From Cheiracanthium punctorium (lineage: Eukaryota; Arthropoda; Arachnida; Araneae; Cheiracanthiidae), in NCBI GenBank assembly GCA_038373885.1, contig JAWZYV010013021.1:107213-171212 (forward strand): 64,000 nt of DNA, given 5' to 3'. A model generated the notes under the pieces. That model was not told the DNA's origin. It made no database searches and worked only from the letters and a program-made list of their open reading frames with translations. A program made the translations under genes and the position numbers. Below, in pieces: positions 2,454 to 64,000 of this stretch (position 1 is its first letter; each line of letters begins with the position of its first letter).

Positions 2454-3826
2454 TTCAGGTGACCCTTTTATAAAATGAATAAACTACATCCCATTCAAAT
2501 ATGTCAAATACAATGTTTTATACAAGATTTCAATATTCTGCAAAAAAAGGCAAACAAACTTTTCTCTTTGATAGTATGAAAGTAATGCATTCTCAAAAAT
2601 TTTTTTTGATGTTAAGAATTTAATTTTTTGTACTGGCATGATTTTTACATTTTAACAACAAATGTTTAATCAAGAGTACCCTAAACGAAAATTGAGCACT
2701 TCAATTACTAGAATTTCTCAATAACTAGCTCTAACTACGCATGCAATATTTTATTATATTTTTAAATTATAAAGCATAACGAAAAAAGTAACTTTTTAAT
2801 TTTGCTCATTTTATTAAAATAAATAAATAATTGTTTAATCTAAACATTATTTACCGTGATAAAAAAAAGACACCATAAATAAATATACATGTGTATACAT
2901 TATTTCTTTTTTCAAATTGAAAATCAAATTTTAAGTTTCTACACTCTGTATAAAGCTTATTGTGACGAACACAAATTTATCAAAAATAAAATAACCATCT
3001 CTTTCTTTCAGAATTCGTAAACAGACAAGTAGCAAAAAAGAACTGTTTTTGCAGAAGATCGTAGAGAAAAAAATTTCCCTTTTCTCTCTCCCCCCACAGT
3101 CATAAAAGTGTCAAAACGTCCCCCCAGTAAGAAACCCCTTTTATTTTTACGCCCACTCTGCGGGGGTCCGCTTCGCTCACCAGAGGTCGCTCGTTTCCCA
3201 TCTAAGCAGGGATTTTTTGCGAATGCCACCTTAAGGTCCAGATTTCTGGCCTACCGTGAAGCTGTATTTCTAACGGTCGGAAGTTTTGAGTGATTTTCTC
3301 CAGATGTAATGTGAAAGTGTAGAACCTCTGTAAAATGTCTAAACTACATCCTTACGAATATACCAATCATGCAATTTTGCCTTAACACAATACATACCCA
3401 TACTAATTAATTATGTAGTTTTTTATTCTTAAATACTTTTTTAAATTATGCAAAAGTATTGAATCCAGGTTTAACCTTGTAAAATGATAAGCCTGTGTAG
3501 CATTTTAATTTCGTTGAAGGTAAGGTCACAGGGTACAAAGGAAATTCTTAATATCTGTAAGCAAGTGGTATAAACAGGTTAAATCTGGTTTCAAGAAGGG
3601 ATGGAGGAAGTGAGAAAGAAGGACATTTGAGAATTTCTTTCGTATGTCATCATCATCATATACAAATGATGCATACAGAATTATATTAGTGACAGCGAGT
3701 TTGGTACTGCAGAGCAATATAAATTCAGAATTAGAGCAATAAAAATTTCTTAGTGTTGTATGTCAAGGCTCGTATATGCAAAGCTCTCAAGGTATGTCCC
3801 TCGTCTAAGCTTTGACTATAATTCTA
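2447..3826. other. Non-coding; one GC-richer patch at ~3100-3290
   Basis: Mostly AT-rich sequence. A patch near 3100-3290 has higher GC and ORFs on both strands that mirror each other, with no recognisable protein. It may be a fragment of an unidentified repeat. Confidence 0.4.
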
Positions 3827-11367: not shown

Positions 11368-13660
11368 ATGTTTCAAGCTGTGAAAGGTTTCAAGAAAGAG
11401 AATTTGAAGTTCGTTGCAAAGGAAATTGGCGAAACTGTTCCGCAAAGCATTACAGTATCTGGTTTGAAAAAACTAATTCTTGATAGCGATGAATATAAAA
11501 CCGATCCAGTTTTTGTTCAAGATCTTTTAAGTACAGCGGATCGGAAGTTAAAAGAACAAAAGCAAAAAGAGAAATTGGACTATGAAAAGGCGACTGAAAA
11601 AGAAAAAATGGATCTTGGAAAAAGAAAAATTAGATTTTGAAAAAGCTAAATTAGAGCAGGATCTTGAAAGAGCTAAATTAGAACAAGATCTTGAGAAAGC
11701 GAGATTGGATCACGAATTAGAGTTGGCGAAAATTCAAGCACAGAATCAAGGATATCAAGGTGAGCCAATTACTTTTAATCTTAATTCCGAAGCGAGTAAC
11801 GCGAAACGGAAATTTACTTTACTCAGATTAGAATTTATACAATTTAGCGATGATATTAAAGACTGGCTACCCTTTTGGAGCCAATTTGAACAGATTCACA
11901 AAGATGAAGAAATCGCCTCTGAGGATAAATTTCAGTATTTGATACAAGCCACAGTTGTTGGTTCTCGTGCGAGAGAAGTAGTCGAGAGTTTTCCGCCAAC
12001 TGGCGCCAACTATGAAAAGGCTATTGAGAGTTTAAAATCGCGCTTTGGTAGAGAAGATATTTTAGTCGAAGTGTACGTTAGAGAGCTACTGAAATTAATT
12101 ATTTCTGTACAAACAAAAGAGAAGTTTTCGTTAACATTTTTATATGATAAACTAGAATCTTATTTACGCGCTTTAGAAACATTAGGTGTCACTACATATG
12201 TAAATGCTGCCATATTATATCCGATGGTTGAATCTTGTTTTCCCGCTGAATTTTTGAAAGCTTGGAATCGCAGTAACACTTCCAGTTCTAAATACGATGC
12301 TATAGAGCGACTTAAAAATTTAATGGAATTTCTTAAAACCGAGGTAGAAGGGGAAGAGAGAATTAGTTTAGCTGTAGCTGGTTTTGGCTTAGCAAAGAGC
12401 CAAGATAATAAACCGTTTAAGAAAAAGTCTCATGTTTCAGAACAGTTAAGGAATAAAGTACCGACAGATGCAGGTTTATTGACAACTACTTCGACTGCAG
12501 AAGTTAAGAAATCTTGCATTTTCTGTGAGGGAAAACACATGAGTTCAGAATGCTTTTCAGCACAAAAAATGAGTCTTTCAGAAAAGCAGAAAATTGTGAA
12601 AGATAATTGCTGTTGTTTCGCCTGTTTGGCAGCTGGTCATACAGTTAAAAGATGTCAAGATATTTTAAGATGTCTGGTTTGCTCTAAGAAACATGTTCCA
12701 TTAATGTGTGATACCCTCCAGCCACAACATAAACCTCCTCAAAAGAAAGATGAAGGACAAGCTGTTGAAAAGGAAGTTAACATGTCTAACTTTAGTAAAC
12801 GCAGTCCAAAGGTTTTCCTCCAAACTCTGAAAGCTAAGTTAATATCTGAAGAAAAAGAAAGAACTGTACGATTACTACTGGATTCGGCGTCACATAAATC
12901 TTACATTTTGAAAAGTGTCGCCAAGGAAATGAATTATATACCTTTTCGCCAAGAAAGACTAGTGCATTCCCTTTCTGGTGGCATTTCGTCCAAAGAGATT
13001 ATACACGACTGCTGCAAAGTAAGATTGAGAAATCTGTATGAAAACTTTAGCTGCAATTTTGAAGTCATGGTTCAAGTACAAATTTGTGAAAATATTCAAT
13101 CAGTTTGCCCAGGTTCTTGGATTCGAGAGTTAGAAGAAAGTAATATGACTTTGACTGGTGTTAGCGTCAAAAACGAAGCAATTGATGTCCTTGTCGGTGC
13201 TGACATCTTGGGTAAGCTGCTAACTGATGGGATAAAGACATTATCATCTGGTCTTGTGGCAGTTGAAACACACCTTGGCTGGACTTTGATGGGAAAAGTA
13301 CCACAAGCAGTGATTTCAAATGATGACTTGGCGATGGCGGTGATATCAATGTATGTGAATGAAGCTGACATCTCTAGCTTGTGGAAATTGAATTTATTGG
13401 GCATTACTGATCCTATCGAAAAGAAGTCCAAATCAGAAATTGATTCTCAAACAAAGGAGCATTTTTTAGAAACTGTAACGGTCAACAGTGATGGTAGATA
13501 TGAAGTATGCTTGCCTTGGGCTGATGATAATTCACCTTTACCTGATAATTTGAATTTGGCGAAAAAACGGCTGGATTATACTACTTCAAAACTAAAAGGC
13601 ATGAACTTGTATCAAGAATATGAAAATGTATTTTTAAATTGGCTCAATGAACTATTATAG
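11368..13660 (+). pseudogene. BEL gag-protease and start of RT
   Basis: The start codon is 43 bp after the LTR. The frame opens with MFQAVKGFKKENLKFV and a charged coiled coil of repeated KLEQDLE units; a frameshift near 11600-11640 moves it into a 692-codon frame. That frame holds a gag-like domain, a Cys/His knuckle region (about 12515-12710, with CIFCEGKHMSSEC and CCCFACLAAGHTVKRC) and an aspartic protease motif LLLDSASHKSYI (about 12872-12907). Next is the linker into reverse transcriptase. The frame stops at 13660, while the RT start continues in another frame to about 13835. The retroviral-type role would be capsid assembly and polyprotein cleavage in the cytoplasm. Confidence 0.85.
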
Positions 13661-19700: not shown

Positions 19701-22005
19701 AAGTCTAGAGTTGGGACATTAAGAGGTGCCACTATTCCAAGAATGGAACTCCTTGCGGCAGTGATAGGAGCCAGATTGACGAATTCCATCGTTGAAGCTT
19801 TGAAATGGGAAACTATACAAAGATATTTCTGGAGTGATTCCACCACTGTGCTGGCATGGATATTGAGAGAAGAAAACTGGTCTGTCTTTGTACGTAACCG
19901 TGTTAGAGATTCGATATCTGAGGGATCCCTTATCTTGGAGGCATGTGCCTGGAGAGAAGAATCCAGCAGATTTACCATCTAGAGGATGTAAGGCAAAACA
20001 TCTTATTTCTTCCAAATGGTGGGAGGGTCCTCAGTGGATGAAAGAAACAACAGAATATAGTCATCTAGTGAATTCCTCTGATCATAATTGGAACGAAGAA
20101 GAGATTAAAATGGAAAAATCTAGGAGTAGATGCACTTTGTTTACTAATCAAATCAATAATAAGAGCGATTGGTATTATAAATATTTTTCAAGCTATGAAA
20201 GCATTGTCCGCTTAATTGGGTGGATTCTTCGCTTTAAACATAATTGTTCAAATCCAAAGGATAGGAAACTGGTTGAATTGACAGCGGAAGAATTCGAAAA
20301 AGCTGAAATAAAAATAATACATATGATTCAGGAAGAATTGTTTACTTCCGGAAGTGATGGTCAGCTTAAAACTCTTCAAGTTTTTAAAGATGAGCAAGGC
20401 ATTTTTCGACTGAAAACAAAAATAAGTTATCGAAAAGATAGTGAAGATTTCCTAAAACCCGCAGTACTTCCAGGAACTCATGAAGTAGTGAAGCGATTAA
20501 TCTACAATGCTCACGTTAAGAACTGCCATGTTGCAGTGCAGATGCTTTTGAATATCCTTAGAAAAAAGTATTGGAATTTGCATTGAAGGAAAACTGTAAA
20601 AAGAGTGTTAGCTAACTGTATTATTTGTAAAAGATTTAGCTCCAAAAATATAGAAACTATAACTCCCCACTTCCTGAAAATCGTGTGAAAGATGCAGCAG
20701 TTTTCCAAATTACCGGCGTAGACATGGCTGGTCTGCTATTTCTGAAAAACAACAAGAAAGGATGGGTACTGATTTTTACGTGTGCCGTGTATAGAGCAGT
20801 TCATTTTGAACTAGTTGCTTCAGCTTTAACGGCTGCTTTCCTGATGGCATTTAGAAGATTCGTGGCTTGCAGAGGAAGATGCTCAACTGTATATTGTGAC
20901 AATGGCTGCAATTTTGTCGGAGCTGCTAATTCATTAAAACATTTGGATTGGGATCGTATTCAAAAGCATGGAGCTGTGAATGCTATTGAATGGAAGTTCA
21001 ACCCGCCTACAGCTTCCTGGTGGGGTGGCTGGTGGGAAAGACTGATCAGAGTAATGAAAGATCTACTAAAAAGAGTGTTAGGAAGAGCAAGTTTAAATTA
21101 TGAAGAAATGACAACTGTTTTGGCAGACTATGAAAGTGTCATTAACCCATTTATGCCTAGCGTCCCTTTTTTGGGACGGCATTTTCGCTATTAGTCGAAA
21201 ACGTTATTTATTTTTCCTAGCCTTTATTCATGAGTATTGAGCCTGAACTCTACAAAATATTTTAACATGACCAAGTAGTATGTTGATATTTCAATTTTTA
21301 TGCATAATGATTTTAAAACAAATCATCCCTTGTTCAAAAAGTTGACATCAGAAATTTATCTATTATTTCTGCTATCAGTAAAAATCGAAGAAAGTCGCAA
21401 AAATATCCAGGCACAAATGGGTTAATTCTAGGCCTCTGACATACATCACAGAAGATGAAGCCATTAAACCTATATCGCCGTCATTGTTCCTTCAGGACAT
21501 TCAAGAATACAAGCTTCCGGATGCTGATGCTGTCGATCAGAAATCACTCACAAAAAGAATCAAATACAAACAATCGCTACTCAAGAATTTGAGAAACCGA
21601 TTTAGATCAGAGTACTTAGGAGTACTTATCCAACGAGGAAGCAGAAAACATTCAAGTAATACCATTTCTGTTGGTGATATTGTCTTGCTGGGATCTGACA
21701 ATAAGAAACGAATCAACTGGCCTTTAGGACGCATATCTGAACTTATTCCAGGAAAAGATGGAAAAGTTAGGCTCGTGAGAATTCAAACTTCACATCAAGA
21801 ATTACTTCGCCCAATTCAAAGAATATATCCGTTAGAGGTAACATCCTCTAGCAGCGTGTCTGCTCCAATGATACCTAACGATTTAAAGAAGTCAAACGTC
21901 ATCTCCGAAACCTCTGACGTAACTCCAGATCGTATTTCTGACGGTGAGATGAAGTTTAGTCGATATGGAAGAAAGATTAAAGTGCCAGAAAGACTAAACC
22001 TGTAA
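19656..22005 (+). pseudogene. BEL RNase H tail, integrase and C-terminal domain
   Basis: The RNase H/linker region contains IPRMELLAAVIGARL and ends with a frameshift near 19950. A zinc-binding stretch follows (about 20583-20640, LANCIICKRF) after a TGA stop at 20584. The integrase core has GVDMAGLL, VYCDNGCNFVGAAN and SWWGGWWERLIRV, supplying the three acidic positions. A TTAA MITE splits the core at 21142-21425. Coding then resumes and ends with a C-terminal domain containing VGDIVLLGSDNKKRINWPLG. The intact enzyme would insert cDNA into nuclear DNA; this one cannot. Confidence 0.85.
21142..21425 (+). repeat. TTAA-flanked MITE, copy 2 (inside BEL integrase)
   Basis: Same family as the copy at 10609-10895, in the opposite orientation. 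It interrupts the BEL integrase codons; removing it with one TTAA restores the flanking reading frame locus, which confirms its boundaries. Confidence 0.88.
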
Positions 22006-27439: not shown

Positions 27440-30400
27440 GCCGGAATTAGAATCCTCTCATCCGGAATTGCAGCAGACGGAAGAAGCTTTCAACGGACTA
27501 ATGGAAACTTTCCGATTCGACAATACCGAAAAGTTTAAGGACATAAAGTCATTCTTAAAAGATATAGAACCTCGAGTAATACGAGGACTGAGTAAAGCGA
27601 TTTCTACCATGGAGATCAAAACGAACTTTCGCCTTCTTTGTCGGTATCAAAAAACATCTAACGAAGAAACGGTCGAAGAAATTAAATGCTTCAAAACCAA
27701 AAATGAAATGGTTCTTTCTTCGCATGATTTATCCGAACTCTACTCGCGAGTATGCGAAAAACTAAAAAAAGAAGCTTCCGAATTTGAAGGAAAAGATTAT
27801 GGATGGAGGTTAATCGAAGTTAATTATTTAGAATTCAAGACTAACAGGTCCTTTAAGAGCCGATAATTATATTCCTCTCCCTAAAAAAATTAAAAGAAAA
27901 CAAGCGGTGGTAAATGTTAAGAATTCCGTTAAGATGTGTTTCAAATGGGCGGTGCTTTCAGCTTTACAACCCCTCTAGTGATCACGTTGACAGAGCTTCA
28001 AATTATACAGCGTATTCAAACACGCGGAATTTCACAGATATTTCGTTTCCAGTGCAGATATCGGACATCACCAACTTTGAAAACATGAACCGTATATCTG
28101 TAAATGTGTTCTACTTGAACAACCAGTGTCAAGAATGTCCTCTGCGAATTAGCTCGAATAAATTTCCGCAATTTGTTGATCATCTGTATCTAAAAAATCA
28201 AAATATAAACCATTACGCATGGATCAAGGACTTGTCTCGACTGGTATCTTCCCAAATTTCAAAAAGCAAGTCGAAGAAATTTGTATGTCGTCGCTGCATG
28301 AATTCATTCGGAACACTCTAGCTACTCACCAAGAACGAAATATTATGCTCTGAACACGATGCCGCTTTAGCGAAAATGCCATCTGAAGATGGAAACATGC
28401 TGAAATTGAACAACGTGAAACATCAGCAGATGATTCCGTTCGTGATAGTGGCGGACTTTGAAGCCCTCACAAAAAATTGATAATTACGAACCCAGTGGTA
28501 GTTCGTCTTATAGCATGGTGTACCAAAAAGACAAGGCAATTTGTTTTTATTATTATATAATTTACGAGAATGGTCTCTAAAAACCCCCTGTGGTTTATCG
28601 AGGTGAAGATGCGCCGCAGTTTTTCATGAAAATGCTAGTCGATGAAACGAAGGAAATTGAAAGCATGTACAAGAGTACAAAACCTATGGAAATTCTTAGG
28701 GGAGAAAAAAGCGAAATCACGAAGCCTCCTCCACTTGCTATATCTGCGGGGGTGGTTTTTCAAAGGAAAACGGGAATGTCGCGGAGCACAACTACTTGAC
28801 GGGTGAATACAGAGGAGCTGCATGTAACAGCTGCAATTCGAAGTTTAAGCTCCCACATTTCATTCCCGCGTTATTCCATGATTTGTCTGGGTACGACTCG
28901 CACTTTACAGTTAAAGAATTGGGATTTGACAAAAAACAGATATCTGTTATTGCAGAAAATGAAGCGAAATACATATTGTTCAGCAAAACAATCGGAAAAA
29001 CTCAAATTAGATTCGTGGACAGTTTTAGGTTCATGTCTTCAAGCTTGGAATCGTTAGCGAAATACCTAGACGCTAATGAATTTAAGTACATGAAAAAGTT
29101 TTTTCCACCCTCCAAAGTAGAACTTTTGCTTCGGAAAGGAGTGTTTCCGTACGATTACATGGATAGCAAACAGAAATTAGAAGAGACCACACTCCCACCT
29201 AAGGAGTTTTACAGCATTTTAAACGAATCAGAAATTTCCGATGAGGATTACGAGCATGCTGTTACGGTCTGGAAGCAATTCGATTTTAAAAATTTAGGAG
29301 AATATATGGTACAGTACGTGAAAACCGATGTTTTACTTTTGGACGATGTTCTCCAAGCTTTCAGAAAAAAATGCTTCGAAACGTACGGGTTAGAAATGGC
29401 GTGTTATTACACATCTCCGGGTATTTCCTGGGATGCCATGCTGAAACATACAAAAATTGACATCGAGCTTTTGACGGATTACGAAAAGTTGCTGTTTATA
29501 GAACGAGGCATTCGAGGAGGCGTTTCGCAGTGCAACTATAAATACACTCGTGCCAACTACAAATTTATGTCCGATTTCTATCGCCATAAAACGGAATCGT
29601 TCCTTATTTATCTAGATTCCAATAATTTATATGGCTGGGCAATGTGTCTATCGCTTCCTCTAAATTATTTCCAGTGGTGTTCCGTCGATATTGATGTACA
29701 GAATATTCCGGACGATGCCGGAAAGGGTTACATTCTCGAAGTAGACCTGGTTTATCCCACTCATCTCCATGAAAAACACAATGAATGCCCGTTAGCTCCC
29801 GCAAGTGAAATCCCCCAGGTTGTAAAGAAAAGACTCATGCTGACATTACAAGATAAAAAAAGATATGTGGTGCATTACAGAAACCTCAAAATCTACATGA
29901 AGCATGGATTACAAATCGAGCGCGTACACAGAGTGTTACAGTTTACGCAGAAACCCTTTTTAAAACCCTATATCGAGCACAACACCAATCTTAGAAAAGC
30001 GGAAAAGAACAATTTTGAAAAAAAACTTTTATAAGTTAATGAATAACAGCGTGTTTGGCAAATGCATGGAAGACGAGAGAAGAAGGAAAGACATACGACT
30101 GTGCTATAATAGTCGAAGCGCTGAAAAGTTAATAGCGGAACCCAATTTTCCGGAGAGAACAATTTTTTCTCCCTCCCTAGCTGCTATACATATGCAGAAA
30201 AATGAAGTCCTTTTCAAAAAACCGATATCGATAGGCATGGCTATTCTAGACGTCTCGAAGACATTAATGTATTCATTCTATTATGAATTCATGATGCCCT
30301 CTTACAACCGAAAATTTAAGTTACTGTACACTGATACCGACTCCTTCATATTTAAAATTGACACTCACGATTTATATGACGATATAAAACACAACATAGA

Positions 30401-30812
30401 AAAGTTTGATATGTCGGACTACAGAGAAAATAATCCGTATTCAATACCTCGAGTGAATAAAAAGACAGTAGGTCTGATGAAAGACGAGTGCAATGGCTCT
30501 ATTATGACAGAATTTGCGAGATTACGAAGCAAAGTGTACAGCTTCAAACTCATGAATGATGATAAAACCTCAAAAAAAAATTAAAGGGGGTAAAAAGAGC
30601 AGCTCTCCAAAAAAGAATTCATTTCGAAGGCTACAAAGAATGACTAATGCAACGAAGTGAAAAAATGACCTGTATGCGTATTGTAAGAAGCATCAAGCAT
30701 GAGATATTTAGTTGTAAAGTAAATAAATTAGCGCTTTCGTCTCACGACTAGATTTATCTGTGAGGACGGTATATCCACATTGGCTTGGGGCCATTTTAAA
30801 ATACCACTGTAA
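27370..30812 (+). pseudogene. Protein-primed DNA polymerase B (pPolB) of the Polinton
   Basis: The coding region passes through at least six frames. The N-terminal region contains MNRISVNVFYLNNQ and HYAWIKDLSRL. The exonuclease motif VIVADFEAL lies near 28441. Polymerase motif A is LDSNNLYGWAM near 29611, motif B KLMNNSVFGKCMED near 30033, and motif C LLYTDTDSFIF near 30323. The C-terminus reads EDGISTLAWGHFKI and ends at a TAA at 30810-30812. Breaks occur near 27430, 27860, 28320, 28480-28590, 28795, 30020 and 30584. An intact enzyme would replicate the element using a terminal protein as primer. The motif residues themselves are intact, so decay is by indels. Confidence 0.9.
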
Positions 30813-32908: not shown

Positions 32909-33952
32909 GAGAAAACGTATCAAGATCCGAACCACGAGGCAAGTTTTGGTGGTTTAAATGCTTTGTACCGTTCTGCTCGAGGAAGAGTAAGCAAACCGCA
33001 GATACAGAAATAGCTACAAGGCGTGGATGCGTACACGCTTCACAAACCGGCCCGAAGGAAATTCCCTACAAATCGTGCGATTGTCCTTTCAAAGGATCAT
33101 CAGTGGCAAGCTAATCTTGTGGACCTATCTAGTTTAAAGCAATACAATGACGAATACAAATATCTATTAAATTGTATCGATATTCTAAGTAAGTACAACT
33201 GGTCGGTTCTGCTTAAAACGAAACGTGGGGAAGATATCGTAAAGGCCTTTGAATCTATATTTTTAGAACTCAAGCCGCTCATTTTGCAGGCTGAACAAGG
33301 TACTGAATTTATAAATGCAAAATTTCAGTCCTTTTTAAAACGACACAACGTACGATTTTTCACAACGTGTAATAATACGAAAGCATCTATTGTAGAAAGA
33401 TTTAATCGTTCTTTGAAAACAAAAATGTGGAAATATTTTACAAAAAATCGCACTTATCGGTACTCGGATGTTTTAGAACAACTCATGCATAATTATAATC
33501 ATACTTACCACTCGAGTATCAAACGAGCGCCCGCAGAAGTGACAGAGTCTAACGAGCCGGATGTGTGGTTTACCTTATACGGTGGTATGAAAAATGCAAA
33601 GGAAAAGCCTTGTGTTTTTAAAGTGGGAGATACAGTACGTGTATCCGAGCATAAATTGACCTTTGAGAAAGGATATGAAACCAACTGTTCCGAAGAATTG
33701 TTTATCGTGACAGAATACGTACCGAGAGACATCCCTGTTTATCGGATCAAGGACTTAATGGACGAACCTATTATGGGAACGTTTTACCCGCAAGAACTTC
33801 AAAAAGTACAACCCAAGGAGAAATTTAATGTAGAAAAAATATTGAGAAACCGAACTAAACAAGGTCAATTAGAATACTTTGTGTCATTTAGAGGTTATCC
33901 TAAAAAGTTTAATCAGTCGATTCCATCCGAAGATTTGTTTCGGTATAAATAA
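32909..33952 (+). pseudogene. Polinton integrase with chromodomain
   Basis: The start is at ATG 32909 (MEKTYQDPNHEASFGGLNAL). An in-frame TAG occurs near 33012, then 309 codons are open. The retroviral-type core shows the first acid in NLVDLSSL, the position of the second in QAEQGTEFINAKF and the third in ASIVERFNRSLKTKMWKYFT. At the second position the usual Asp appears as Glu. A C-terminal chromodomain (EKILRNRTKQGQLEYFVSFR) follows. Role: insertion of the element with 6-bp duplications, perhaps guided by the chromodomain to histone marks. The stop and the substitution suggest it is inactive. Confidence 0.9.
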
Positions 33953-49652: not shown

Positions 49653-51028
49653 CTATCCCGTAGCCTTCGTGTCGTAGCGAGTCTTCATCTTTTCCGTGTT
49701 CAGGTTGATCCGCTCCCGAGCAAAATGATGCACATCTTCAAACCGTGCCCGAAGGTTTTCCACGTACTCTTCTGGCGATGAAGGCGCATCTGGAGGGCGG
49801 CCGAGCACTAGATCGGCGGGAAGACGAAGATCTCTGCCGAACAGCATCTGGGAAGGTGTGAAGCCAGTAGTCTCATGGACGGCGCTCCCATAGGCCAGCA
49901 GGTAGAGGGGGAGTTTCTTGTCCCAGTCCTCTTGATTCCTAGATACCAGAAGCGAGAGGTTGTTTAAAATTGTGCGATTGAACCTCTTCACCATGCCGTC
50001 GGATTGTGGGTGTAAAGGCGTAGTCTGGGTTTTGTCCATTCCGAGAAGTTGGCATAGTCCTTTAAAGACTGCAGAGGTAAAGTTCGTTCCTTGGTCGGAA
50101 TGAAGTTGCAGAGGGGTTCCATATCTGGAAATCCATTCTTGCACCAGTACCTCTGCTACGGTCGTAGCTTCTTGATCGGGAATAGGAAACGCTTCGGGCC
50201 GTTTAGAGAAGTAGTCAATGACAACTAGGATGCATTTGTTGCCATCCGAAGTTCGCAGAAGAGGTCCCAGGATGTCGAGGGCAATCCTCTCAAAAGGCGC
50301 TCCTACATTATAACGATGTAGTCTTCCACGGCTTCGTTTCTTCGGGCCTTTACGGGCGGCACAGACGTCACAAGCTTGACACCACTTTTCGACGTCGCCT
50401 CGAGCCCTAACCCAGTAGAAGCGCTCGCGAACTTTATGCAGGGTCTTCATTACGCCAAAATGGCCTCCAGTGTAGCCATTATGAAGTTCTTCTAGAACCT
50501 TCGGAATCCTCGAACGAAGGAGTACTAACTGCCATCGGAGCATCTTGCCATCGTCCGACTCCCATTTACGATACAGGACTCCATTCCTCAGGCGAAGCGA
50601 ATCCCATAAAGCCCAGTACTGTTTCGTTGCCGGACTGCAAGATGATATTTCTTGCCAGCTGGGCTTATTGCCGGACTTTTCCATAAATTCCACAATTGGT
50701 TTGATGTCGCTATCTGCTAATTGGTCCGCCCGAACATTTTCCTCACTCCAGGGATCTTGAGATGCTGCCGATGATGTAACTTGGCGGACAACGGGATGTT
50801 TCAGATGGTAATTTTTCTCCGCCCTGGAGCAATAGCGACAACTCTCTATGCAGGGCCTTCTCGACAAAGCATCTGCATTTCCATGAGATGCTTCTTTCCG
50901 ATGACGTATCTCGATGTAGTATTCTTGTAATCGCTGTATCCACCTGACTATTTGGCCCTCTGGATTCTTGAAATTTAGAAGTCAGGTTAAAGAGGCATGG
51001 TCCGTTCGGAGCAGGAACTTTCGGCCGT
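49653..51028 (-). pseudogene. Gypsy RNase H remainder and integrase
   Basis: The 404-codon frame starts at 50867 just after the RNase H end. The H2C2 zinc domain has His in GGHFGVMKTLHKVRERFYWV and Cys in CQACDVCAARKGPKK. The core has FERIALDILGPLLRTSDGNK (first Asp), LHSDQGTNFTSAVF (second) and a Glu-equivalent position in SDGMVKRFNRTILNN, where Lys replaces the usual Glu. Upstream, 50868-51028 encodes the RNase H tail with stops. The Lys substitution at the third catalytic position, if confirmed, would abolish strand transfer. Confidence 0.85.
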
Positions 51029-52897
51029 TCAGGTAATGATGGAAGTGCTCCACGGCCTTAATGATAGCAAGAAGTTCCTTTCTCGTAACAGGATAAATGG
51101 CTTGTCAGGGCGAGGATACGACAGGATCGGCGAAGATGTTAAAGCCGTTTTCAGTTCGTTGAATGCGTCCTCACATTCCTCAGACCATAGAAATTTCTGT
51201 CCAGTCTCGGTCAATTTGTAAAGAGGTCTTGCAATTTGAGAAAAACCCTTCACGAATTTTCGATAGTAAGTACACAGACCGAGAAAACTTCGTAAGTCAT
51301 GGATATTCTCCGGACGACTCCAGTTCTTGACTGCGGACGTCTTTCCGGGATCAGTTCGGACTCCGTGGGCGGATATTATATGCCCGAGGTAACGTACTTC
51401 CCGTTGAAACAAATTGCACTTCGACGGACTTAGTTTCAAGTTTGCCTCTTTTAATTTCTGCAGTACCTTTCGAATGTTCTCGAGATGCTCTTCGAAAGTC
51501 TTTCCGACGATGATGATATCGTCCAAATAAACGAGACATGCTTCGTAGGAAAGTCCTCTCAACACTGTCTCCATCAGAGGCTCGAATGTAGCCAGTGCGT
51601 TGCAGAGTCCAAAAGGCATAACCTTGAACTGCCACAATCCTTGTCCCGTGGTGAACGCAGTCTTTTCACGGTCATCGGGATGGATTTCTACTTGCCAGTA
51701 GCCATTCTTGAGATCCAGAGTGGAGAACAATTCATTTCCCGATAAAGTGTCCAATGTGTCGTCTATCCTGGGAAGAGGGTAGCTGTCTTTCTTGGTAATG
51801 TCATTCAGACGTCTGTAGTCAACGCAGAACCGGGTGGAACCACCTTTCTTTCGGACCAAAACAATCGGCGAGGCCCAGGGAGTAGTCGATGGCTCGATGA
51901 CGTCATCACGCTGCATCTCCTCTAAAAGTCTGTTCACCTCTTCTTGCTTAGCAAACGGCAGCCGCCTAGGATGTTGCTTGATGGGAGAATGGCTGCTTGT
52001 GTCTATTCTTTGTTGCGTTAACCTCGTACGGCCAAAGTCACCGGAAGTACGAGAGAAGAGGTCTTCAAATTCAGCTATTACTTTCTCTGCAGCGCTTCTC
52101 TGTTCTGCCGTTAACTCCACGTCTTGTAATAATTCCTTCGTCAGGCACTCGGAAGATTTAGCTGTCGTTTGGCTGATGTTCTTATTAATGCAGGTAACAG
52201 GAGTGCATGTCGCCAACACTTCATTTTTCTTTATCACCTTCGACTTGTCCGTCACATTTGCTATTCTAACTGGAATTTCTGTTCTCGACAAGTCCACAAG
52301 TGTTGCTCCCACAAGTACTCCTCTGACGGAATCACTATTGTTTGGGTGTTCGATTAATCCAAAACGGAATTTATTGCTTTCTTTTACTGTACCAGAAATT
52401 ATTGAATCAGTTCTGGGAGGTAGAGTGATATCAGTCTGGGCTATTATTTACTGAACAGGCAAAACAGTTTCATTTCTAATATCGAACGCAGCTATTTCTT
52501 CTGAGTCTGAACGAAGTTCATTATTCTTAAAGTCCAAATTAAATTTGTGCGATTTTAAAAAGTCGAGTCCGAGAATAAAAGAGTCCGTAATATTGGCGAC
52601 ATATACCACATGGTCGTATCTGGCATTTCCAAACGTGATTTCTACTTGTGCTTTTCCGCCCCCTTCGATCTTGTCACCTGTCACAGTCTGGAGGGTCAGC
52701 GAGGGCGGAGTCCAGAAAATCTTCAAGTTTAATTTCTTGGCCAGATCCGTCCTTATGATGGTTACGTTCGCTCCAGTATCAATCACCATGTGGCATGGGG
52801 AACCATTAACGTATCTAAGTACGAAGAGTCCATTACTGCCGCCATTCACTGATGAAATCTGCATGACTTTTAGGTGGGGCTTTTGACTATCTGGCAA
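51029..52897 (-). pseudogene. Gypsy protease and reverse transcriptase
   Basis: The protease frame (52448-52897) has the active site MVIDTGANVTIIR and FILGLDFLKSHKF. A single TAA at about 52445 separates it from the in-phase 427-codon RT frame (51029-52312). RT motifs include FCVDYRRLNDITKKDSYPLP, FSTLDLKNGYWQVEIHPDDR, MPFGLCNALATF and the catalytic box CLVYLDDIIIVG. The start of RNase H follows, but after YPRPDKPFIL the frame jumps to sequence that normally lies later. The first catalytic part of RNase H therefore seems deleted, with a frameshift. Confidence 0.9.
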
Positions 52898-52923
52898 CCT
52901 CCGCCCCGCGAGATGGCCACCTC

Positions 52924-54164
52924 CTAGTTTCCCTCTTTCATGTTTTTAGAGTTCTCTTGCTGGTCATGAGACTTTCGACCACAATGCTTTTGTACACGGC
53001 CTTCGACGCCACACTTCCAGCATTTCACTTTCTTTGGGCTATCTCTCGTTCTATCGGATCTTAATTTTCGTTCTATGAGATCTTCAATTCTCTTCAGCCT
53101 GTTCTCGACGCTCTCTGTGTCTTTGTCAGCTCCCTCTTGGACCGTGACAGCTCTAACGGCATGCCGATCTTTCCTGGCGGCCCGTTGAGCTGCTTCTAGC
53201 TTCATTGCGAAGACGAGAGCAGATTTCAAATCCTGATAATCCTCCAACATAAGTGACTTTTGGGTTTCTGTATCACGGATGGCTTCAATAAAATGACGCA
53301 CCGCCATTTCTTCTCGGACATTATCAAGGTGGTCCATGTAGGCCAGATGACGCAGCCTATCTATGTCCGAAGCCAGCTCTTGCAGGGTCTCGACAGATCT
53401 CTGCATCCTTGACTTAAGTTGGATTATACTATATTCTTTCTGGCACTTCTCTCCGAATTTCATCTCCAGGGCACTTGCAAGTGCGTCAAAATCTCCTATC
53501 TTTGTCACCCCGATGGTTTGTAGTACATTAATTGCGTCTCCGATAAGGGAAGCGGCCAGTTGGGCCGCTTTCTCGGACTCGCTCCAACCATTGGCTTTGG
53601 CGACGATCAAGAATTGGGTCTTGTAAGCTTCCCAGGGAGTCTTTCCATCATAGGTCGTTAGTTTCACTGTTGGGCGGCGTGACGACAACTTGATGTTTTC
53701 AGGTAATTTTCCCATCTTCACTAGAGAGTCAAGTTTTTCCTCAATTTTATTCTCAAATTCTTCACGCAACTCTTTCACGTTTCTTGCTTGGCTTTCTTCT
53801 AGTATCGACATTCTCTTCTCCATATTTTCTTGATTTGTCTTTTTTTTTCCTCCAGTCCGGATTTCATCTCGTCGTGTGCGGCTCTTAATTCTTCCAGTCC
53901 GGTCGTCACATCGTCGTGTGCGGCTCTTAACTCGTCCAATCCGGTTTTCAGTTCATTGTGCGCTGTCTTTAACTCGTCCAATCCGGATTTCATCTCGCCT
54001 TGTGCAGCTTTAATCTCATCTTGTCCGGCTTTCATCTCTTCTTTTATCTCATCTTGTCCAGCTTTCATCTCTTTTTTTATCTCATCTTGTCCGGATTTCA
54101 TTTCTTGCATCATATTCATGAGCTTTTGAAGTTGTTCTTCCATTTTTTGTCTAGTCAAAACCAT
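52924..54164 (-). pseudogene. Gypsy gag with repeat coiled coil and knuckle
   Basis: The start codon at 54164 (MVLTRQKMEEQLQKLMNMMQ) opens a coiled coil of about ten GQDEIKKEMKA-like 11-residue units, encoded by a tandem repeat. A frameshift in a T8 run near 53840 leads to the 299-codon capsid-like frame ending at 52924. Near its end a zinc knuckle CWKCGVEGRVQKHC has Arg where the usual His of CCHC stands. Gag would form the particle and bind RNA; the frameshift separates coiled coil and capsid. Confidence 0.85.
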
Positions 54165-59866: not shown

Positions 59867-60141
59867 ATTTAAAGGTTTATACTACTGACAACTAGATACG
59901 GTGTCCAAAATTCTGTAATTCGACTTAAAGGGCACGAGTATTCATCGAGTGCCCCCCCCCCCTTTTTACACACACACAAAGATAAACTTTCGTTGCAAAC
60001 GTTGCCTGGGTGCATTACGTGTTAAAGGAATAACATGTCTAAAAATTATTGTCTGCTTCGCTTCCCACCGTTGCATAGCGCGAGTGCAGCAAATTTCCTC
60101 CTGTGTCCATCATTGTTTACCGTCATCGTTACTCCTACTGA

Positions 60142-63100
60142 TAGTCCAGTCATCTTAGTAGTTTAACCTCGGAATTTGAGATACCCAGCTATAAACTTGT
60201 ATACACTTTTATTTTGACATCCTAAAACTTGTCTCAAAACCTGCATATCGTAGGGTGCCCGCGTCTGTCAAAATTTAAGGTCAAAGGTCACAAAAATCGA
60301 CTTTTTCCACATTTTTCGCAAATATCTCGTTTTCTATGGATTTTACGCTATTTGTATGCATTACCAATATTGTAGAGGATAAAATTCTCTACAACTTTTG
60401 TACCAAAAGTTTTTTTATACGTTGAACCGTTTACGAGATAGAGGGCAGTGAGCGCGCAGTGTTGAACTATGTAGAGTACCATTTAAGGTCAACCGGTAGT
60501 CCCGATCAAAAACACGCTTCATAAAGTTTATAAATTATTGATAAATGTATACTTACAAGTAATTTTAATTTTTTTGTAAATATTACATTATAATTAATAA
60601 CTTTTTTCATTACGTATTTATTTTTAATTAAGTATCAGTTTATTTAATCACACTTACCTGCTCGTGTACTTTTCAAAATATTAAGGGAAATACTTAAATT
60701 ATACTTTAATTTTAATCAAAGTTATACTAATTACTTAAATAAATAAAAAAAGAAAAGAAATAAATTTTTAATTAATGCTTTCAGTAAAAAAGTATCATTC
60801 CATACATTTATGACTGTCAAAATTAAAACAATTGAATAATAATTATAAGAACTAAAAGTTCTAATTTTAATTTTCTTTTTTTTCATCATCATCGTCTTCC
60901 GGTTGCTGCAGAATTTCAGCTTCCTCTTCACTATCTTCAAAGACATTTGTCTCTTCCATTATTTCAGGGTCAAAGGTTCCATCTTCATTGGCAAACTCTG
61001 ATATGGCAAAGCATTGAGACAAGCTTGCCCATTACACTGGCCACAAGCTACAGAGCAATGCAATCCCGATTTCCTACATCCACATCGCGAACCACAACCA
61101 TTTTTGCAGTTGCAGAATATTGTGTTTAGCAATTCCTTTGGAGCAGCTGTTAAAATTGTCGCGATAGGTTCCAGGAATTCGTTACACATTGTCCAACCCA
61201 TTCCTGGGGTTCCAAATCATGCCATAACCAAGTTTGAACTTGATAATAAACAAGATTAAAATGTTGATGAGCTGCTGCACTTGGAATATTTGATAACTGC
61301 ACAGGTTTATTTAGTTTTGTTGACTTGACATACTGGGCGTAACGAAGGTGATCGATACTGTCCACAGATTTTGGAGCATTATAGACTGCCAACAAGGTTT
61401 TCATTCCATTCTCAAATAATCTTTGTACCGGACAGTTTTCTTCTTCAAATGCTGCAGCAAGTTGAGTCAAATTCGGCAGTTTCTCAAATGTTTTTAAAAA
61501 AGTTTATTTTCCCTTTTTTAAAGAGCGCAGAAGTTGTGTCACATCCACTTAATGCGTGCAGAAACAAAATGTGTCTTTTAGAATTAGGATATTTATCGAA
61601 GCTTTTGGAGGAGTATATTTAAGTTTTTACATTCCTTTTGCCAACTTTTTTAAAGAAAATTTCTTGTTGGTAGGATAGAGTACGCCCAATTAAAATGATA
61701 CCTAAGTAAATCTATATCTTCTCCTATCATAACTTTTTCATGTTTCGATTCTTCAATAGCTGTTTCAATGATAAGAATATCCGCATCATCTCTGGCCTGT
61801 TTTGTAGAGATATATTAACAGCTATAATTTCTCAATAAGCATATTAATTAGCTTCTCTTTATTACTTCGATTTGATAGGAATTTTTCTTGGCTAATTGGT
61901 ACAACCATTGTATTGTCGAAACAAACGTCGCATGTTTTTGAAAGTGCAGCAGTCCTCATCTGCTCCATTGCTTTTATGTTTTTACTGTAGTCTGAATATC
62001 CATCGAATACAACAAAAATTTTAGAACCATAATGCGTTTGTAAATATTTTACGTATTTATCTAAAATAATAGAAAAAGTATCTTCTCTACTCCATACAAC
62101 TCGATGTAGAAGAAATCCACCATCAATAATGAACGTTACATTATTTTCTTGGAGATCAAAATCGATAGGTGTCATATTGCCATACAACGACGATTTTGTA
62201 GTTTTTCCCATGCCATCATTATCAAATAGTGCTGTTGGATAAGGGCTCAATTCATATTGAAGATATTCTTCAAGATTACTTTCAGATTGCTTGCTCACAG
62301 TTATTCTTTGGAAGAGTAATAATGGATCTACTGAAATTTTATTATCATTAATTTTTACAGATTTATTACCAAGATATGAATCAAATGATCAAAAAATGAA
62401 TCATGTTTACCAAGATATTAATCAAAACTAATGGAGTAACGTCACGGAAAGGCGCTGCCTAAGAAAGACAGTTTTAGTTGTTTTGTTTTCGATTCTCTTA
62501 AGCCAATATTCGTTTTATATATATAAGTTGTAATTCGCTATCCTTTATTCATCACCAATTAAATGGTATAAAGATTATGAGGGCTGTTTTCCTTTCGTCT
62601 GAGTCAAATTGATCATTTGAGAAGAGATGAGTACAGTTTTCATTATTATAGACGTAATTCAAAGCCTTTTAATCCGTAGAAATATTCTTTATTCGGTAGT
62701 CAACACGTATAATTCCCAGGTATAATTTTTAACGTTATGAAAGAATTTAAAAGCTTACGGTTTTTAAAGAAGATGTGCTAAATTATTTTCTACTTAAAAT
62801 GTAATTAGTGTAAATGATAATATAATTAAAATGTAGTTAAAGTATTTCCCTTAATATTTTTTTTAATTATATGAATAGGTTATAAGTGTTATTGAATAGA
62901 TAGATTACTAATTAATGAAAAAAGTTATTAATTATAATGTAATATTTACATAAAAATTAAAATTATTTATAAGTATACATTTATCAATAATTTATAAACT
63001 TTATGAAGCGTGTTTTTGATCGGGACTACCGGTTGACCTTAAATGGTACTCTACATAGTTCAACACTGCGCGCTCACTGCCCTCTATCTCGTAAACGGTT

Positions 63101-63392
63101 CAACGTATAAAAAAACTTTTGGTACAAAAGTTGTAGAGAATTTTATCCTCTACAATATTGGTAATGCATACAAATAGCGTAAACACCATAGAAAACGAGA
63201 TATTTGCGAAAAATGTGGAAAAAATCGATTTTTGTGACCTTTGACCTTAAATTTTGACAGACGCGGACACCCTACCATATGCAGGTTTTGAGACAAGTTT
63301 TAGGATGTCAAAATAAAAGTGTATACAAGTTTATAGCTGGGTATCTCAAATTCCGAGATTCTTGCCCTATTTTGACTAAGATGACTGGACTA
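60142..63392. mobile_element. 3.25-kb element with ~580-bp TIRs and a nuclease-like gene
   Basis: 60142-60720 and about 62820-63392 are long inverted repeats, highly similar over at least 400 bp. The outermost shared phrase is TAGTCCAGTCATCTTAGT; a TA at each edge may be the target duplication. The left arm lacks a short stretch near its end that the right arm has. The interior carries one minus-strand gene (60867-62298) resembling a PIN/FEN-type nuclease with a CXC-like cysteine cluster. No DDE, tyrosine recombinase, Rep or RT motif is visible, so the mobilisation mechanism is unclear. Confidence 0.8.
60867..62298 (-). pseudogene. PIN/FEN-like nuclease with CXC-type C-terminus
   Basis: The start is ATG 62298 (MSKQSESNLEEYLQYELSPY). 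An Asp-containing strand VTFIIDGGFLLHRVVWSRED and KIFVVFDGYSDYSKNIKAME recall the N-terminal acid cluster of PIN/FEN-type nucleases. After a break near 61820, RDDADILIIETAIEES and MIGEDIDLL give further acidic residues, and later HALSGCDTTSALFKKGK. The frame 61150-61470 follows, then the Cys cluster FCNCKNGCGSRCGCRKSGLH with further Cys (near 61030-61130) and an acidic tail (FEDSEEEAEILQQPEDDDDE) ending at 60867. Frameshifts lie near 61820, 61690, 61500, 61190 and 60960. I recall similar ORFs scattered in arthropod genomes, without a named superfamily. The nuclease role is inferred. Confidence 0.65.
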
Positions 63393-64000
63393 TGAGGCCC
63401 ACCGCTGACGAGTGATCTAAGAAAAACCTGTACACACGACAAATGTGCACTAGGGTGGATCGAAAAATATTTTTTTTCGAAATATTTATCACCTGAGGTC
63501 TCAAAAGTTGTAAATTGATACAAATAAGACATGTTTAAAATTTGAATGTTCTACGACAACGTCTTGGGGTTGCGCATCGAGATTGAAATTTAGAAATTTT
63601 TGATAAATGACTTTTTTAAAAAATCGGCCAAAAAATTATTTTCCGAATTATTAGGCTCCGGAGGTTTTAGAAGTTTTATATTGTTATGAATAAGACGTAT
63701 ACAAAATCTGAAGGGGCTGTGACAATTTCTAGGAGTTGTACATCAAGCTTGAAATCTATACATATCTGAAAATTGTGTGTTTTCTGACAGAAATATGTAG
63801 AAAGCAAAAATTATATTTTTAATGAATTAATCCCGTTGAAAAGTAGCGAGTAACGTTCGCAGCTCTTCTCTAGTACAATGACAATCGTTACTACATTACC
63901 CAGGACCCACCTCATTGATTTGCCTGTGATCCGAGTCCTGCCCGTTCCAGCCCAAGCATCCAATTATTGGAGCATGCGGTTTAATGAATAATGATAGGAT
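63393..64000. repeat. Degenerate ~165-190-bp repeat units
   Basis: Two units (about 63470-63625 and 63640-63790) share the order: GAATTATTAGGCTC-like or ATTTATCACCTGAGGTC-like start, AAGTTGTAAATTGATAC-like middle, ATAAGACRTRT, then GACAAC/GACAATTTC and a GTTGCGCATCGAG-like end. It probably belongs to another, unidentified element (AGGGTGGATCGAAAAATATT near 63452). No gene seen. Confidence 0.4.

Follow-up and report, generated by a model that had tools for sequence, protein, structure and literature searches.

An element with long inverted ends and a broken nuclease gene in Cheiracanthium punctorium is probably an internally deleted derivative of transposons encoding a DDE-FEN-CXC protein

Two lineages of Academ transposons are distinguished in a published description: AcademX, with a nuclease and target-site duplications (TSDs) of 3 or 4 bp, and AcademH, with a helicase and TSDs of 9 or 10 bp (PMC10045372). 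Here we characterize an element of 3,251 bp, at positions 60142-63392 of a 64,000-nucleotide stretch of DNA from the spider Cheiracanthium punctorium (contig JAWZYV010013021.1; this whole stretch is termed the window), in which long terminal inverted repeats (TIRs) enclose the broken gene for a FEN/EXO1/XPG-like nuclease with a CXC cysteine cluster. An original prediction, made from the nucleotide sequence alone, had proposed it as a candidate transposon class in which a nuclease replaces, or works with, a transposase. We conclude instead, with a probability of roughly 0.9, that it belongs to a cut-and-paste family having TIRs of about 593 bp and 3-bp TSDs, whose ancestor encoded a DDE-FEN-CXC protein, and that it is a decayed, non-autonomous copy with an internal deletion; it represents no new way of transposing. 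The closest described group is AcademX, and the family is probably Academ(X)-like, a placement made by comparison with the published description. The TSDs here, of 3 bp, fall within the AcademX range, and the combination of nuclease with transposase occurs in full-length relatives, where an XPG/FEN nuclease is fused to a DDE-like core; the window copy has the nuclease only. We take the nuclease of AcademX to be of the XPG type.

Gapped alignment of the two ends, with outermost sequence 5'-TAGTCCAGT, gave TIRs of about 593 bp each (559 identities, 34 mismatches and 37 gap positions), including core arms of 457 nt that are 97% complementary (60165-60621 and 62904-63360) and an outer arm pair that is 95% complementary (60138-60159 and 63375-63396). 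Inverted ends of about 580 bp had been predicted, and the borders then assigned proved exact. In other copies the arms appear as self-matches at element positions 1-593 and 2660-3251. The first 419 bp of the element, searched against the host assembly (2.53 Gb; 15,171 contigs), retrieved at least 40 scored matches with 92-100% identity, a lower bound drawn from 40 scored of 168 candidates and including the window's own two arms. Nineteen of 20 fetched TIR loci also contain internal parts of the element, mostly 91-97% identical; one 9.5-kb stretch (L015) bears a solitary end arm at its positions 1135-1616 with no internal part, and is either a truncated copy or a short derivative. Identical 3-bp flanks, varied in sequence, border 14 of the 19 elements that have both ends (the window and 18 loci; L015 and L016, each with one end missing, were omitted), and the remaining five show no match. 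The genome search and alignment of copies proposed with the original prediction thereby yielded a repeat family with defined ends and TSDs, to which the element belongs far beyond chance. Some copies are interrupted by other inserts (L019, 3372-6270; L022, 4526-5777; L023, 4544-6468; L026, 2439-3909; L028, 3208-6679), the ends of which look inverted-repeat-like (CAGTGATGYCGCT, CAGTRAAAYCT, CACTCATGTCC and others); these inserts are probably other DNA transposons, nested within the copies.

The single minus-strand coding region contains the motifs first noticed (VTFIIDGG, FVVFDGYSD, GEDIDLL and GCDTTS), a nine-cysteine cluster and an acidic tail, but it is broken: alignment of the window copy with the related protein P0001 requires five frame shifts and encounters two stops, so that no single open frame remains. 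Read through these interruptions, it matches P0001 with 72% identity over 98% of a 428-residue query. As had been suggested, the gene encodes a FEN/EXO1/XPG-like nuclease and a CXC cluster. The nuclease has a PIN-like fold whose clustered acidic residues are highly conserved across relatives, and Pfam XPG_N was matched at 4.3e-5 in the best of 43 relatives. The five open pieces from the window matched no Pfam family at E <= 1; a sequence search of PDB with a 188-residue piece returned malic enzyme as its sole match (E 0.32), which we attribute to chance. The nine cysteines of the CXC cluster are conserved in relatives and a CXC label is attached to several matches in UniRef, with no match to a Pfam CXC model in the Pfam scans. 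We found no description of a CXC domain in such a transposon in the open literature, most subscription papers and Repbase Reports lying outside the search. The FEN1/EXO1/XPG (Rad2) enzymes show just 13-18% identity in the matches shown, and differ in that the nuclease here lies within a transposon protein, with the CXC cluster behind it. Named relatives are mostly from arthropods (moths, beetles, ants, wasps, aphids and spiders), with some from corals and molluscs. Three proteins from moths (Diatraea, Eumeta) and an ENA contig (P0233, P0008 and P0001) are 79-81% identical to window positions 61825-62367; horizontal transfer is possible.

The window type has lost the catalytic part of the gene. 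In all 11 copies with an uninterrupted gene region (the window and ten loci; the breakpoint and frame-shift counts omit L015 and the insertion-interrupted L014, L018, L019, L022, L023 and L025-L028), the gene starts at residue 145 of P0001, and the window copy consequently lacks the catalytic D, D and E, all three of which lie upstream. Among 83 match rows from a genome-wide search with P0001 (best 68 of 2,640 candidates scored), 14 begin at residue 143 or 144 and another 14 precisely at 114, a clustering that indicates two recurrent deletion types. L029 and L031 share the TIRs of the window type and are longer; they start at the position corresponding to residue 580 of P0140 and retain the conserved-E region without the part bearing the first two conserved Asp; in the P0001 alignment their gene regions were trimmed to the window match, and the residue-144 start there is not their real start. 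Searching at the DNA level for the 741 bp that L031 has in addition (best 40 of 123 candidates scored) gave two matches over the full length, one to C8574 itself and one, at 90%, to C6870, followed by a partial match in C5342 (144 bases), related families at about 70-75% and a few short partial matches at 85-94%. No DDE sequence was present in the window element or at any of the 20 TIR loci that were fetched; against the window, three queries from the DDE region gave no tblastn match.

The 11 deletion-type copies also have one 4-bp frame-shifting insertion in common (Table 1), and their polymorphic sites are spread evenly over the codon positions (22, 26 and 22 of 175 each), revealing no codon constraint. 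Together these features imply that the coding region was already dead when the window type multiplied, and hence that something else moved it. The original prediction was conditional on copies elsewhere with the same ends and an intact reading frame; the ends recur, but the frame is intact in none of these copies. Internally deleted derivatives of the Ac/Ds type are similar in having intact ends, a common internal deletion with filler, and many copies; unlike them, the window type keeps a large piece of its gene and so looks like a one-gene element. Annotation of transposable elements is open to this trap, in which an internally deleted family with a conserved accessory domain can pass for a novel type with a single gene.

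The absent half was found in relatives. P0233, a protein annotated from Diatraea saccharalis, matches the 188-residue piece at 81% identity over 174 residues and extends upstream through a DDE region in the same protein. A sample of 285 returned proteins, picked by similarity and not a census, included the DDE part in 76, the nuclease part in 223 and both in 40; where nuclease-bearing proteins reached at least 1,000 residues, the DDE part was also present in 19 of 21. The assertion that no known transposase is present thus applies to the window copy, but not to its fuller relatives, and the nuclease does not replace a transposase there but is fused to a DDE-like core. Full-length relatives have an RNase H fold with conserved D84/D87, D250 and E492, one of D84/D87 being presumably catalytic. 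With a structure model of the DDE half (predicted local distance difference test, pLDDT, 86; predicted template modelling score, pTM, 0.87), the first 18 rows of a VIA structural comparison were DDE transposases or RAG1, the best being the P element transposase; Foldseek with this model returned nothing at E <= 0.001, and the DDE assignment is based on the VIA comparison. The P element, Transib/RAG1 and hAT (Hermes) transposases have about 10% sequence identity to the DDE half, and they are not known to have a FEN domain.

That structural match provides one argument for assigning the same biology to another superfamily, the DDE-FEN-CXC elements being undescribed and nearer the P element or another group than Academ. 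A literature search for Academ together with XPG gave no usable paper; yet transposase, nuclease and 3-4 bp TSDs are what the published account of AcademX describes (PMC10045372), and both features occur here, so that we consider this placement unlikely. A further version has somewhat lower odds: full-length elements would constitute an undescribed superfamily in which a DDE core resembling that of the P element, a flap nuclease of the FEN/EXO1 type and a CXC domain are permanently fused, the nuclease would process transposon ends or the donor break as an integral step, and deletion derivatives would arise repeatedly at a few breakpoints. Members of KDZ (Kyakuja-Dileera-Zisupton) are reported to have TSDs of 7-8 bp (PMC12730594), compared with 3 bp here; KDZ had no Pfam match at E <= 0.1 among the 43 relatives, a result that does not exclude it.

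We give little credence to descent from a two-gene transposon in which the nuclease was a separate accessory open reading frame and the DDE gene was deleted. Accessory nucleases are described for Kolobok lineages (PMC9587614), but the 40 proteins containing both parts argue otherwise, as does a diverged relative in the host genome, L030/L032 (contig C4018), in which a 1,049-residue open frame spans the DDE and nuclease halves. This relative carries in-frame stops, and its ends begin TAGCCCAGT and TAGTCCAGT; its arms align over about 220 bp with 173 identities and a score of 155 (200 shuffles reached 33 at most) and are flanked by TTT. Of 19 candidate end pairs at L032, we retained the TTT-flanked pair starting TAGYCCAGT on account of this long arm alignment, five others lying inside the same TIR; the flank is T-rich, so a TTT duplication alone is weak evidence. 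A new transposon class in which the FEN-like nuclease acts as transposase is scarcely credible: the lack of DDE sequence at the TIR loci and the conserved nuclease acids would suit it, but the gene was already frame-shifted and free of codon constraint as the family spread, a single 5' truncation is common to all 11 copies, and the long relatives nearly all include the DDE part.

Under the preferred reading, as an internally deleted derivative, the autonomous ancestor would have encoded one large protein in which a cysteine-rich N terminus preceded a DDE (RNase H-fold) core, followed by a FEN/EXO1/XPG-like nuclease and the CXC cluster. The window type would then have lost everything through P0001 residue 144, the entire catalytic DDE core with it, and the 4-bp frame shift would have arisen in its founder before multiplication. 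With the core lost and the founder frame-shifted, the type presumably spread by mobilisation in trans: a full-length DDE transposase from elsewhere would have bound the TAGTCCAGT ends and moved the derivatives by a cut-and-paste route, inserting them with a 3-bp stagger. In such a protein the DDE core would cut and join the ends, the nuclease, if it acts as FEN/EXO1 enzymes do, might trim a flap or an intermediate at the ends, and the CXC cluster may bind DNA or metal. The nuclease of the window element is then the surviving tail of a transposase, which removes a candidate transposase-free transposon class, and the fusion of a DDE core to a FEN/EXO1-like nuclease in full-length relatives raises the question of how their ends or donor sites are processed.

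Table 1. Features of the element and its flanks, in window coordinates.
Feature	Position	Strand	Remarks
TSD TGA, left copy	60139..60141		3 bp
Left TIR	60142..60734		Starts 5'-TAGTCCAGTCATCTTAG; arms recur as self-matches in other copies
Gene remnant	60870..62367	-	Approximately P0001 residues 145-650, C-terminal part of DDE + FEN + CXC protein
Acidic C-terminal tail	60870..61000	-	
Nine-cysteine CXC cluster	61019..61114	-	Relatives called Tesmin/TSO1-like CXC in UniRef
Nuclease piece with DxD and GEDIDLL acidic motifs	61653..61814	-	
4-bp frame-shifting insertion, just after GEDIDLL	61701..61704	-	In 11/11 copies of the deletion type; absent from L029 and L031
FEN/XPG-like nuclease domain, first part (IIDGG, VVFDG)	61825..62367	-	
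Internal deletion junction	62372..62634		About 260 bp of filler, versus about 740 bp of coding sequence in L029/L031
Right TIR	62801..63392		Ends CTGGACTA-3'; same basis as left TIR
TSD TGA, right copy	63393..63395		3 bp

Other mobile elements occur in the window. Positions 28700-30584 and 33014-33952 contain a DNA_pol_B_2 match (5.7e-16) of the protein-primed type with an Endonuclease_7 match, and an integrase core (rve, 7.9e-07, under the Pfam cut-off) with a chromodomain; from their order and spacing we take these to be a decayed Polinton/Maverick-like element. On the minus strand, 49653-53952 bears reverse transcriptase (1.8e-36), RNase H, H2C2 and integrase reading frames, presumably a Gypsy-like long terminal repeat element by gene order. 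A DUF1759 reading frame (2.1e-20) and later integrase-like frames, at 11552-13660 and 19867-22005, resemble what we assume to be a BEL/Pao element split by other sequence.
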